IMG/VR virus record: IMGVR_UViG_3300036715_002961
Coordinates: 1 to 64,000 of that record
Origin: a virus
Reading direction: 5' to 3' (one strand)
DNA length: 64,000 bases
Shown: piece by piece, positions 52,628-56,854 of the stretch
Position numbering within the stretch: the first letter of the stretch is position 1
How the letters are laid out: every line of letters begins with the position of its first letter
Notes under the pieces: generated by a model
What the model saw: only the letters and a program-made list of their open reading frames with translations
Told to the model about the DNA's origin: nothing
Databases searched by the model: none
Made by a program: the position numbers and the translations under genes

Positions 52628-53398
52628 CTACGTCGCGAACCGATTTAGGCGGACTTCGGCGTGCCCCCCCTTTCGGGGTTTCATGTGGGAAACGAGGTCG
52701 GGGAAGCGAGCGACCAGATCGTCTGCCGCCGCCCTTGAGGTCTCGTGAGAGCGACCGAATGCCATGCAGCCGCCAGCCTCGACGCGGGCGCGGTTTTTTG
52801 GAGCCAGGTCGTTGAAGCGAACCACGGCGCGATCGTCGAGCCAGTAGAAGATGGTGCGCTCAATGTCGTCTTTGACGGGGACGGTCAAGCGATGCCGGCG
52901 GTCGTTGACGATTCCGTGCAAGGTTCCGATGATCGAGCGAAGGTCGAACGTCACGCCGCCGCCCATGAAATAGGGATTGAATAGCGGATACAGGCCCCAG
53001 ATCCGCGCGCGGGCGGCCGCACATACTTCGAACCCGGCATTGAAGACGCCGACCAGGTCGTTGACCTTCGAGAACGCGTTCGAGTTCTTTTCCGGGGATG
53101 CATAGACGGAATCGACGTCGTCGTCGCTTTGAACGATGAGGGCGCCATCTGGGAAGTAGTCGGTGATGAAGTTCCTTTGAGCCGTGAGCCCTTTCACGCC
53201 GACGACGAGTAGCCCATAGGAGTCCCGCGGGACGGCACACGCGTAGGCCGCGCGCTCCGCTTCGTCAGCGACAAAGATGTAAATGCGCTCGCGCTCGACA
53301 CCGCCCGCGCGAAGGGTTTGGAGGGCGCGACAGTCGATCAGGCTCGCGCGTTGGTAGCTCGGAATCGCCACTACCCAGTCAGTCGGATCGGAAATCAT
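52628..53398 (-). CDS. TET-associated-type glycosyltransferase
   Basis: A 256-aa GT-A-like enzyme: VVAIPSYQRAS (nucleotide-sugar strand), RIYIFVADEAERAAY, GVKGLTAQRNFITDYF, VQSDDDVDSVY (DDD near 92-94, metal/sugar-nucleotide site), and the acceptor-side GGGVTFDLRSI...VPVKDDIERTIFYWL. The pattern fits the TET-associated glycosyltransferase (TAGT/GREB1-like) group found with phage TET genes. It would transfer a sugar to 5-hydroxymethylcytosine in phage DNA. The ATG overlaps the deacetylase stop (53395-53398). The sugar donor cannot be told from sequence. Confidence 0.8.
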   Translation of the reverse strand: MISDPTDWVVAIPSYQRASLIDCRALQTLRAGGVERERIYIFVADEAERAAYACAVPRDSYGLLVVGVKGLTAQRNFITDYFPDGALIVQSDDDVDSVYASPEKNSNAFSKVNDLVGVFNAGFEVCAAARARIWGLYPLFNPYFMGGGVTFDLRSIIGTLHGIVNDRRHRLTVPVKDDIERTIFYWLDDRAVVRFNDLAPKNRARVEAGGCMAFGRSHETSRAAADDLVARFPDLVSHMKPRKGGHAEVRLNRFAT

Positions 53399-54069
53399 TG
53401 GAGGATCCCTCGTACAAGCCAGAATGCTTCCGCGGCCGCTTCCCCGACCTCTTCGCCTCGCGTTTCCGCCCATCGACGTACGCGGTCGACCGTGAGCCAG
53501 GTTCCCGGTCGGGCGAACTGGCTCTCGTAAGCAGCGCACGCGGCGAGCTTCGCGGATAGGTCGGCCGGCGAGAGCGGGAACAGGAACTTGCCGCCGGGAA
53601 GCTCGGGGGCGGGCCATACCGCCGCGTACGGGTATTCGTAGAGGGCGAGCATGACGCCGATGGTCGCCTCGCGCGGGCGTAGGGCCGCGAGAGTCGCGCG
53701 ATAGACGGCCTGGTGGTCTTGGTGGTGAGAGGCGTAGGCGACGAAAATTGACGTCGGGCGGAACTCGTCGATCCGGGCGTCAATCGACCCGACTAGATCG
53801 CGCTGGGCGACCATGTCGAGGCGCGATTGACGGTCGAGGCCCGCGGGGACGATGGCCCAGTCCTCTTCGGCTAGACCGAGGGCGCGCATGGAGGCGCGGA
53901 CCTCGTCGAGCGTTTGAACGGCACGACGCACGGGAGTCTCCCCGAAACTCAGGAAATCGACGCAACATTGCTTCCCTGCGCGCGTTTTGGCGGCGAGAAG
54001 GCCGCCGCAACCGAGCGCTTCGTCGTCGGCGTGGGGGGCGAGAACCAAGATCCGATCATCCCATCTCAT
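53395..54069 (-). CDS. PIG-L/LmbE-type N-acetylglucosaminyl deacetylase
   Basis: A 224-aa protein with the zinc-site signature LVLAPHADDEALGCGG (H13, D15, D16) and the second metal motif HHQDH (residues 115-119), as in MshB/LmbE/PIG-L enzymes that remove N-acetyl groups from amino sugars. It lies between the dioxygenase and the glycosyltransferase with 4-nt overlaps on both sides. The obvious inference is that it deacetylates an N-acetylated sugar placed on modified DNA (or the nucleotide-sugar donor), leaving a free amine. Confidence 0.9.
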   Translation of the reverse strand: MRWDDRILVLAPHADDEALGCGGLLAAKTRAGKQCCVDFLSFGETPVRRAVQTLDEVRASMRALGLAEEDWAIVPAGLDRQSRLDMVAQRDLVGSIDARIDEFRPTSIFVAYASHHQDHQAVYRATLAALRPREATIGVMLALYEYPYAAVWPAPELPGGKFLFPLSPADLSAKLAACAAYESQFARPGTWLTVDRVRRWAETRGEEVGEAAAEAFWLVRGILQ

Positions 54070-54971
54070 TCGCCGATCTCCAGTGATTGACCGTCGCGTA
54101 GTTCCTTGAGCCGTTCGTTCGGATCGACGCAATCGAGCATCTTTTCGCGCATGTAATAGACGACGGAAATCCGTTCTGCGTCCTCGGATTCCGAGACCAT
54201 GTCGGTGACACCGTGCCACTCGTGCGAGTTGAAAAACAGCACGTCTCCATCTTGGAGATCGACCGCGACACCGTATTCAGGGAATCCGAGAAGCGCGCCC
54301 GTGTACTTGCCCCGGCGGACCATGGAGATCACGCCGAATCCGTCTTTGAAGTCGCCTTTGTCCGTGTGGGTTCCGCTCGGCGCCGTGTTGTTGTTGACGG
54401 TCAGTGTCGTGAAGGGCGTCCCGGAAATGACGAACTCGGAGCGACAACGATCGCAGGCGGTGAGCTGGGCCTTGTAGCGGCTCGGCGAGGTCCGCTTGAA
54501 GAGGTCCGCGACGTGCGTGATCATCGGCATGATCGTCTGCCACTTTTCAGGCTCTTGCGCATTGAACGAGGTCTCGCGGCAGAACGGGAATCGGCCGCCT
54601 TGGCGATCGAAGTATCCGATGATTGCGGACGCAACAGCCACGAGGTGTCCGTTGGCATCACGCGTCTCTGTGTTTTTGCCAACGGTTCCATCCGCGAATA
54701 CTTTACGGGGACGTTTGGCACCCGCATATGCACCGCGATTCGTCGATTTCCGCTTACGTAGATCGTGGAGGGCGGGGTAAGCGCCATCGGTCAGCTCGAC
54801 GGGGATGGCCCTACGACGGAGCATCAGCAATGGCGCTCCGTCGGGCTTATAAACGTCCGCATCGCCGGTGAGCAGAACGGGGAGGTCGGAGGCCGAAAGC
54901 AGCTTACCGGCGAATACAGACGCACCGCCGGCGACGCGAGAGCGGAGTTGAAGCACGGGGACGGCGGTCAT
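54066..54971 (-). CDS. TET/JBP-type 2-oxoglutarate Fe(II) dioxygenase
   Basis: A 301-aa double-stranded beta-helix enzyme with iron ligands in SGTHTDKGDF (H202, D204) and HEWHGVTDM (H253), and the 2-oxoglutarate Arg in AERISVVYYM (R267). The preceding TLTVNNNTAPSG and following GYFDRQGG-type elements match TET/JBP-type phage proteins. Such enzymes oxidise 5-methylcytosine to 5-hydroxymethylcytosine in polymerised DNA. A basic N-terminal region (70-95, RKRKSTNRGAYAGAKRPRK) may bind DNA. No cytosine methyltransferase lies in this window, so its substrate must be made by a gene elsewhere or by the host. Confidence 0.88.
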   Translation of the reverse strand: MTAVPVLQLRSRVAGGASVFAGKLLSASDLPVLLTGDADVYKPDGAPLLMLRRRAIPVELTDGAYPALHDLRKRKSTNRGAYAGAKRPRKVFADGTVGKNTETRDANGHLVAVASAIIGYFDRQGGRFPFCRETSFNAQEPEKWQTIMPMITHVADLFKRTSPSRYKAQLTACDRCRSEFVISGTPFTTLTVNNNTAPSGTHTDKGDFKDGFGVISMVRRGKYTGALLGFPEYGVAVDLQDGDVLFFNSHEWHGVTDMVSESEDAERISVVYYMREKMLDCVDPNERLKELRDGQSLEIGE

Positions 54972-56250: not shown

Positions 56251-56283
56251 AGGTTGCGCCTTCGGGTTGATTGCATTTGCGGG

Positions 56284-56412
56284 TTAGTTCACGAAAAAAG
56301 CCGAAATCCGTTGAAAATCGGCTCGGTCGAGTTGTACGAATCGGGCGAGAGCTTCGACGGCGGGCCGATTCGTTCGCCAGACGCGCTGGATCCATTCAAG
56401 TTTGATTTGCAT
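56284..56412 (-). CDS. Possible small helical protein (42 aa)
   Basis: A 42-aa protein (MQIKLEWIQRVWRTNRPAVE onward, ends RISAFFVN) overlapping the end of the third ParB-fold gene by 17 nt. It has reasonable codon use and helical character but no clear Shine-Dalgarno. Its 3' end coincides with a terminator-like hairpin. Confidence 0.5.
   Translation of the reverse strand: MQIKLEWIQRVWRTNRPAVEALARFVQLDRADFQRISAFFVN
56294..56323 (-). terminator. Possible terminator ahead of the modification cassette
   Basis: On the minus strand AGCCGA and TCGGCT form a 6-bp stem with a 13-nt loop, followed by TTTTTT. It lies within the end of the possible 42-aa gene and 44 bp before ParB-fold gene B. Confidence 0.55.
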
Positions 56413-56854
56413 CGGGGGGCGCGTCGAGGTCGATGAGGCGGGCCGAGACAAAATCGCCGCCGGCGAGCCACGCGGCGGTGGTCCGATGATGGCCGTCGTG
56501 GAGGTAGTTTTTGCCGCCGGCGCGCACCACGATCGGGACGTCGACGAGGGCGCCATGGCCGACGGCGCGGCGGCCGGGGACGATCTCGACGTCGCCGCGC
56601 TCGTACTGCATGAGGCGCGAGTCGCTGACGGTTCGTTGAATCGCCATGAGCGAGGCGATCTCGACCTCGACGACGGGGGCCGTCAGCGTGCGAGCGGCGA
56701 TGGCCGCGTCGGCGATGAGCGCCTTGTAGGCATCGCGGTCGGCGACGGGGAACGGGACCAACAACCGACCGCCGTCGGCCTCGTTGAGGTAGCGGGCGGG
56801 GTCGGGTAGGACGCCCCGTTGAGCCCATAAAACGAATGCAGAACGCGGTTTCAC
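56396..56854 (-). CDS. ParB-fold protein C
   Basis: A 152-aa protein. VVEVEIASLMAIQRTVSDSR and VDVPIVVRAGGKNYLHDGHHRTTAAWLAG give a ParB/Srx-type core with DGHHR in the box. The fold is shared with the two paralogues downstream but the sequence has diverged. The N-terminus is short and the C-terminus ends DLDAPPDANQT. It could be a nuclease-like, nucleotide-binding or regulatory protein; such folds recur beside phage base-modification genes. Confidence 0.8.
   Translation of the reverse strand: MKPRSAFVLWAQRGVLPDPARYLNEADGGRLLVPFPVADRDAYKALIADAAIAARTLTAPVVEVEIASLMAIQRTVSDSRLMQYERGDVEIVPGRRAVGHGALVDVPIVVRAGGKNYLHDGHHRTTAAWLAGGDFVSARLIDLDAPPDANQT

Follow-up and report, generated by a model that had tools for sequence, protein, structure and literature searches.

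In the window, which is the whole 64,000-nucleotide stretch analyzed (positions 1 to 64,000 of the IMG/VR virus record IMGVR_UViG_3300036715_002961), we found a chain of five genes that we judge, with somewhat more confidence than doubt, to be a post-replicative thymine hypermodification operon. A TET/JBP dioxygenase, a TAGT glycosyltransferase and a PIG-L-type deacetylase would together yield an amino-sugar thymine, with the C-terminal tail of a ParB-fold protein bringing the TET enzyme. The genes are ordered ParB-B, ParB-A, TET, PIG-L and TAGT, and each of the four junctions is a 4-base overlap (Table 1). The original prediction had described four ATGA overlaps; the overlap chain is real, but only the A/TET, TET/PIG-L and PIG-L/TAGT junctions are ATGA, the B/A junction being GTGA. 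Its view of the chain as a post-replicative DNA hypermodification operon that oxidizes, glycosylates and deacetylates, with ParB-fold proteins as members, was upheld. The TAGT gene starts at 53398, and the longer open reading frames listed there are in-frame extensions upstream. A further gene, proposed earlier as a third upstream ParB-fold gene, carries a DGHHR motif, but its ParB matches are weak and it lies outside the conserved unit seen at other loci; it does not overlap ParB-B, and its membership of the ParB-TET unit is doubtful.

Table 1. Features of the gene chain and its surroundings in the window
Feature	Position	Strand	Description or evidence
ParB-B	55588..56250	minus	ParB N-terminal domain, disordered linker, C-terminal tail
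ParB-B C-terminal tail, diverged TET type, last 39 residues	55588..55707	minus	tail profile E = 0.085, motif, helices
ParB-A	54968..55591	minus	paralogue of ParB-B, coupled directly to TET
ParB-A C-terminal tail, TET type, last 45 residues	54968..55105	minus	tail-profile match E < 1e-3
TET/JBP dioxygenase	54066..54971	minus	Tet_JBP (PF12851) 4.4e-27
PIG-L-type de-N-acetylase	53395..54069	minus	PF02585 1.7e-14
TAGT glycosyltransferase	52628..53398	minus	PF20691 4.5e-12
Possible third ParB-fold protein	56396..56854	minus	DGHHR motif; ParBc_2 0.012, VapB-like 0.0041

The earlier assignments of the three enzymes were confirmed, as the Tet_JBP, PIG-L and TAGT matches all exceed the curated Pfam cut-offs. 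The TET protein has an iron/2-oxoglutarate site of the form HxD...H...R (H202, D204, H253 and R267), and its AF2 model (pLDDT 93) has as its nearest folds NgTet1 (8e-14), CcTet and TET2; the enzyme is predicted to oxidize a methyl-pyrimidine in DNA. The PIG-L protein scored 54.9 bits against a cut-off of 28.2, its metal-binding motif can be read in the sequence as PHADDE and SHHQDH, and its solved relatives are TT1542 and the teicoplanin-type pseudoaglycone deacetylases. The TAGT protein scored 46.8 bits against 27.5, with the DDD motif at SDDDVDSV, and also matched PHROG 842 (beta-glucosyl-HMC-alpha-glucosyltransferase) at 4.8e-10.

The two ParB-fold proteins are 49% identical to each other. 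ParB-A matched ParB_N (PF02195) at 7.8e-6, exactly at the Pfam cut-off, and ParB-B scored below it at 6.1e-5; the ParB fold of the latter is nevertheless supported by its AF2 model (mean pLDDT 85, domain at residues 10-148, disordered linker at about 155-176), for which the top matches in a Foldseek search against the PDB were Noc, ParB and KorB, with Noc the best at 4e-7. The nucleotide-binding motifs of CTP-switch ParBs are kept in part (N24, G69, R72 and N105), and the ParB alignment contained no conserved stretch. A ParA ATPase partner, as in ParABS systems, was not found among the Pfam matches of the genome's predicted genes that were scanned. We also considered a direct kinase role for ParB; it is less likely, because in the fold search the CTP-switch ParBs outranked free serine kinase and sulfiredoxin.

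The coupling of ParB to TET is general. In the TET-only viral scans, a ParB gene lay directly upstream of TET in 85 of the 85 loci that could be assessed (at least 100 b upstream of TET); since the junction recurs in every such locus, the chain in the window is not a chance arrangement. The link had been thought new, but such operons with both a ParB-like gene and TET are already listed in the genomes announced for two cultured actinophages, CaiB of Gordonia (PMC9302106) and Tonitrus of Rhodococcus (PMC11955845). ParB is not exclusive to TET either: many ParBs with 80-98% identical N-terminal domains occur without it.

What distinguishes these proteins, members of a widespread family, is the C-terminal tail. 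A near-identical ParB N-terminal domain bears differing tails, each of which matches the adjacent modifier (TET, Mom, glycosyltransferase or ABC-GNAT), and the same domain also occurs in pairs with Mom or TAGT and, in a fusion protein, with a DNA methyltransferase. A profile of the TET-type tail matched 150 open reading frames but none of 66 Mom-type ParBs; of the matches, 149 belong to TET loci and the remaining one sits at the end of a truncated contig. The ParB-A tail matched this profile significantly, and the ParB-B tail scored only weakly (Table 1), sharing the motif VNVQLFFD...ETILSAL and showing two helices in the model. The TET-type tail is kept at locus L369, where ParB stands 2.5 kb from TET, and at L374, where the head is no recognizable ParB. 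Among the DUF3102-like or unassigned genes that precede TET at other loci, those of L370, L372, L377 and L378 had no significant tail match, leaving L374 as the only positive; the tail profile gave no significant match to the candidate stand-alone tails of P12024L gp25 and L376 (E = 7.5 and 4). The model secondary structure, together with a weak match of one of seven tails to RHH_7 (0.018), only suggests a ribbon-helix-helix. As far as we checked, the tail-enzyme correspondence of the ParB family is new. It could in part be simple co-inheritance, because the gene with the tail normally lies next to that of the enzyme. It strengthens the original suggestion that the ParBs target or control the enzymes, which is plausible, and our inference is that ParB serves to deliver a specific enzyme, perhaps under the control of an NTP switch.

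These results are consistent with the following pathway. TET would act on thymine in the phage DNA, hydroxylating its methyl group to give 5-hydroxymethyluracil, a step for which no methyltransferase is necessary; TAGT would then attach a sugar, probably N-acetylated, from which PIG-L would strip the acetyl group to leave a free amine, or else the sugar would be deacetylated before transfer. The end product would resemble base J bearing an amino sugar, and to our knowledge amino-glycosylated thymine has not been described. The ParB-fold proteins would work with TET, their N-terminal domain binding DNA and/or a nucleotide in the manner of CTP-switch ParBs, and the tail would confer specificity for the enzyme and recruit TET to the DNA of the phage.

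The original prediction had named cytosine as the modified base. In such a pathway a host or unseen methyltransferase would make 5-methylcytosine, TET would oxidize it to 5-hydroxymethylcytosine, and TAGT and PIG-L would add the amino sugar. Phage TETs that act on 5-methylcytosine are reportedly known from Burke et al. 2021, TAGT resembles the HMC glucosyltransferase family PHROG 842, and the acidic D207 (aligned with TET2 N1387) is common to the window TET and the C5-methyltransferase-linked class. A host methyltransferase could supply 5-methylcytosine, and the record is possibly incomplete. However, the prediction had itself seen no C5-methyltransferase, and a check of the rest of the genome agreed: neither PF00145 nor a thymidylate-synthase/pyrimidine hydroxymethylase-type enzyme (PF00303) was found in the whole 88.8-kb record, and searching the complete records of Acadian, Prairie, LittleMunchkin, MementoMori, LilMcDreamy and Tonitrus likewise gave no C5-methyltransferase. 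PF00145 occurred in only 3 of 35 records of the ParB-TET set. C5-methyltransferase-linked TETs form a separate, Melnitz-like class, in which no ParB was found and 64 of the 65 loci that could be assessed have the methyltransferase immediately upstream. At the predicted base-contact position, where R275 of the window TET aligns with TET2 H1904, the ParB-linked class has R in 42/47 and the Melnitz-like class D in 13/14, but T4-like TETs with R at this position have neither ParB nor C5-methyltransferase. The ParB-TET class is mainly linked to thymidine hypermodification: in a pool of 114 distinct TETs from several scans, 62 had both an amino acid:DNA transferase family gene (PF18724 confirmed) and a kinase nearby. 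PF18724, which relatives have, was not among the Pfam matches of this genome, which sets the chain apart from thymidine hypermodification by this transferase and a DNA kinase. In the TET tree, glycosyltransferase-type TETs are scattered, and the sister clade of the window clade includes the AADT-type member L108. As no amino acid:DNA transferase was found in this genome, the case for thymine as the more likely base is built on its relatives, on the lack of a methyltransferase in the record and on a single residue; base-J-like glycosylation of thymine is predicted for this phage. We regard the cytosine pathway as rather unlikely.

It is less likely still that the ParBs are packaging or partition genes that stand beside TET merely because both adjoin the terminase. 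TET units commonly lie immediately upstream of TerS/TerL, and TET-less ParB relatives adjoin the terminase in Thermus phage P23-45 and soil phage contigs. This reading is at odds with the near-exclusive occurrence of TET-type tails with TET, with the pairing or fusion of the same N-terminal domain to other enzymes that are all DNA modifiers, and with Prairie, where the 8.7 kb displayed around the ParB-TET-GT-deacetylase cluster include no annotated terminase gene. Nuclease activity has been reported for ParB domains such as those of Osa and of a ParB-methylase (review, PMC5512222), and the ParBs might be nucleases under NTP control that cleave the unmodified DNA of the host or of competitors, with modification serving as self-protection; their closest folds, however, are the CTP-switch ParBs Noc, ParB and KorB, and enzyme-matched tails are left unexplained by a nuclease role. 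We regard this account as very improbable.

Beyond the thymine operon, we tentatively propose, with more doubt than confidence, that a ParB-type DNA-bound carrier with interchangeable adaptor tails delivers chemically unrelated modifiers (TET, Mom, TAGT and ABC-GNAT, with a methyltransferase by fusion) to phage DNA and, in the window, drives synthesis of amino-glycosylated thymine. If true, a recurring phage gene that annotations often call a partition protein or a nuclease would be explained as a carrier of DNA-modifying enzymes. A specific modified base would also be predicted that is measurable in cultured phages, and the prediction is testable because this gene set is shared by Acadian and Prairie. 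The ParB tail as opposed to a C5-methyltransferase would be a simple marker of whether a phage TET targets thymine or 5-methylcytosine, which bears on restriction evasion and enzyme discovery.

Among known systems, the CTP-switch proteins ParB, Noc and KorB resemble the window ParBs in how the N-terminal domain folds and, in part, in the nucleotide-binding motifs, whereas the window ParBs have another C-terminal tail, an operon with a DNA-modifying enzyme and no ParA gene found. The Melnitz-like TET plus C5-methyltransferase system, a type that Burke et al. 2021 reportedly described, shares the TET fold but has the methyltransferase directly upstream, no ParB, and D at the position of R275. 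In base J synthesis in kinetoplastids, a JBP hydroxylase and a glucosyltransferase hydroxylate thymine in DNA and then glycosylate it; the chemistry proposed here is similar, but base J synthesis is not known to involve a ParB or a deacetylase. The CaiB (PMC9302106) and Tonitrus (PMC11955845) operons have ParB-like, TET/JBP and modifying enzyme genes in the same order upstream of the terminase, with 4-base overlaps reported for CaiB; they carry an amino acid:DNA transferase/pyrophosphorylase and a kinase, where the window has TAGT, PIG-L and two tandem ParBs. The gene set of the window recurs in those of Mycobacterium phage Acadian (genes 1-4, ParB-TET-TAGT-PIG-L) and Arthrobacter phage Prairie (genes 62-66, ParB-(small gene)-TET-glycosyltransferase-deacetylase). 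Both differ from the window in having one ParB; in Acadian the glycosyltransferase precedes the deacetylase and the actinophage TET has L, not R, at 275, and in Prairie 443 b with a small gene separate ParB from TET.

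The five genes of the chain (two ParB-fold genes, ParB-B and ParB-A, then the TET/JBP dioxygenase, the PIG-L deacetylase and the TAGT glycosyltransferase) lie on the minus strand of the window in the place originally predicted, and are linked by four 4-base overlaps; however, only three of these overlaps are ATGA, that between ParB-B and ParB-A being GTGA. The Pfam matches of the three enzymes each exceeded the curated cut-off (Tet_JBP, 4.4e-27; PIG-L, 1.7e-14; TAGT, 4.5e-12), and the ParB_N match was at the cut-off for ParB-A and below it for ParB-B. As modelled by AlphaFold (mean pLDDT 85), ParB-B consists of a ParB domain (residues 10–148), a disordered linker and a small two-helix C-terminal element, and the best PDB matches of this model were Noc, ParB and KorB; the TET model (pLDDT 93) matched NgTet1, CcTet and TET2. 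A predicted third ParB-fold gene is present, but its ParB match is weak. Tandem ParB pairs precede TET in several lineages (the window and loci L018, L107 and L074), and such pairs may possibly form hetero-oligomers. The window, from a record of 88,800 bases, also contains a phage-borne tmRNA gene with the tag ANDNDLVQTIAA.

Coordinates of features in the source record and in related loci
Feature	Sequence	Position	Strand
tmRNA gene	window	1543-1876	-
Tandem ParB pair	window	54968-56250	
Gene with weak ParB match	window	56396-56854	
Large terminase	record	57889-59583	
Dam-like and MT-A70-like methyltransferase genes	record	about 74654-75412 and 77975-78547	
ParB-domain gene, methyltransferase-associated type	record (G000)	81303-81965 (L001:17303-17965)	-
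ParB upstream of Mom gene	L158	5001-6229	
ParB, then ABC-ATPase/GNAT fusion	L159	666-2251	
Radical SAM/SPASM protein	L003	3891-4853	
TET fused to glycosyltransferase-like domain	L020	941-2650	
ParB upstream of terminase subunits	L016	4974-7769	

Co-occurrence of ParB-fold proteins with TET across phages, originally proposed as a check, was observed. In two IMG/VR scans using only TET proteins as queries, a ParB-fold gene was found directly upstream of TET in 85/85 loci (duplicates removed, 100 b or more present ahead of TET), counted as loci rather than as independent evolutionary events; the exceptions (L026, L077 and L085) were contig ends. We also pooled 114 distinct TETs from cultured phages and all scans except the Melnitz-like one, and the ParB profile identified a partner for 103 of them, 93 overlapping TET; these loci came partly from ParB scans, and the unbiased figure is thus 85. 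Four further TETs belong to the Acadian group (gene 1 is annotated as ParB-like in Acadian itself), two are truncated, and no ParB was found for five (P12024L, DLP6, Cr30, S-CBWM1 and Melnitz). In bacterial bins (Terriglobia, Pirellulales and others; L370, L372, L374, L377 and L378), the gene preceding TET is not ParB, and is DUF3102-like in L370 (8.9e-8) and weakly so in L372 and L378, whereas those of L374 and L377 were assigned to no family. In L020, as read from the sequence, TET is naturally fused to a glycosyltransferase-like domain.

Scans with ParB sequences detected N-domains at least 80% identical carrying different C-termini and followed by different genes. When the C-termini were clustered on sequence alone, without use of neighbours, a clear correspondence between tail and enzyme emerged, of which our literature search found no earlier description. 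A Mom gene adjoined the Mom-type tail in 66/66 cases (Pfam Mom, 2.9e-51), TAGT the glycosyltransferase-type tail in 7/7, and an adjacent TET was called for 89/106 members of the TET-tail cluster; among the other 17, one is on a contig that ends immediately past ParB, and each of the remaining members has TET within its locus (cases of tandem ParB, an intervening gene, long start calls or greater distance). For the ABC-GNAT type, the gene was found for two members and not for three. In seven cases ParB is fused directly to a DNA methyltransferase (the one checked is of N6/N4 type; PF01555, 6.4e-17). N-domain identity reaches 98% between tail classes and 89% between TET and non-TET types. Among individual loci, a Mom gene in the marine phages L158, L172 and L190 is immediately preceded by a ParB that has a tail type of its own, ahead of the terminase genes; in L159, ParB precedes a fused ABC-ATPase/GNAT protein, a putative DNA modifier. 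In L176, L181, L198 and L203, ParB is followed by TAGT and TET was not seen; the substrate of this TAGT may be an unoxidised base, or else hydroxymethyl bases that are produced elsewhere. Beyond the window, the record itself contains a further ParB-domain gene and MT-A70-like and Dam-like methyltransferase genes.

Since adjacent DNA is co-inherited, this correspondence alone does not prove that the tail docks the enzyme. However, a search of 18,747 ORFs with a tail profile gave 150 matches (E < 1e-3), of which 149 were in TET loci and one was at a truncated contig end; the profile was trained on cluster-chosen tails of these same loci, so that matches to those members arise by construction, whereas their specificity for TET loci does not. 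The TET tail is thus retained with TET across phages whose ParBs often share no more than about 20% identity with the window ParB. In L369 (Parcubacteria bin), a canonical-tail ParB is separated from TET by 2.5 kb that hold other genes, and in L374 (Terriglobia bin) a significant tail (2.2e-6) occurs on a head not recognised as ParB. These three sequence patterns go further than co-inheritance of neighbours.

The original prediction named cytosine as the modified base and proposed searching the remaining genome for a C5-methyltransferase; neither PF00145 (C5-methyltransferase) nor PF00303 (thymidylate synthase/hydroxymethylase) was found in the 88.8-kb record, and PF00145 was present in 3/35 records of the ParB-TET set. 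Most ParB-TET pairs are followed by genes for glutamine amidotransferase, GNAT, amino acid:DNA transferase (PF18724) and P-loop kinase; in thymidine hypermodification, enzymes of the latter two types work on 5-hydroxymethyluracil. In contrast, among 71 loci with relatives of the Melnitz TET, a C5-methyltransferase lies directly upstream in 64/65 non-truncated cases, and no ParB was found. The position aligned with TET2 H1904 is R in 42/47 TETs of the ParB class (L in the rest) and D in 13/14 of the Melnitz class. Glycosyltransferase-type TETs are dispersed over the TET tree. The window TET pairs with that of L003, and the sister group of this pair (support 0.89) includes L108, with an amino acid:DNA transferase (1.1e-9), and L107, with a kinase. 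Taken together, these sequence comparisons suggest that thymine is more likely than cytosine to be the TET substrate. Two points weaken this reading: T4-like TETs have R at the H1904-aligned position without ParB or C5-methyltransferase, and a host enzyme could supply 5mC. In L003, the closest ParB-TET relative, a radical SAM/SPASM protein directly follows TAGT and may serve to make or modify the sugar or the base.

By alignment, N-domain residues N24, G69, R72 and N105, each conserved in 49–55 of the 55 sequences compared, probably correspond to parts of the ParB/Noc nucleotide-binding motifs. ParB would bind DNA, possibly under a nucleotide switch, and its tail would bring TET to the DNA, after which TAGT would glycosylate and PIG-L deacetylate, the substrate of PIG-L being either the DNA or the sugar donor. 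For the window operon, the assignment of the base likely changes from cytosine to thymine.

Cultured phages show related arrangements: ParB-TET with a 4-base overlap in HTVC112P; ParB-TET-TAGT-PIG-L-TerS-TerL in Acadian (gene 4 against PIG-L, 1.6e-10); and ParB, a small gene, TET, glycosyltransferase and deacetylase (PIG-L, 6.8e-14) in Prairie. MementoMori has ParB-TET alone ahead of TerS-TerL, which suggests that ParB is tied to TET itself and not to the later enzymes. In Thermus phage P23-45 (L016), a ParB gene lies close upstream of the small and large terminase subunits without TET. The ParB-TET link, originally considered new, had already appeared in genome announcements: CaiB genes 1 to 5 have 4-bp overlaps and include a ParB-like nuclease and TET/JBP (PMC9302106), and for Tonitrus a parB-like domain is listed within a thymidine hypermodification system (PMC11955845). 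The window chain is a catalytic set in this already known kind of operon.
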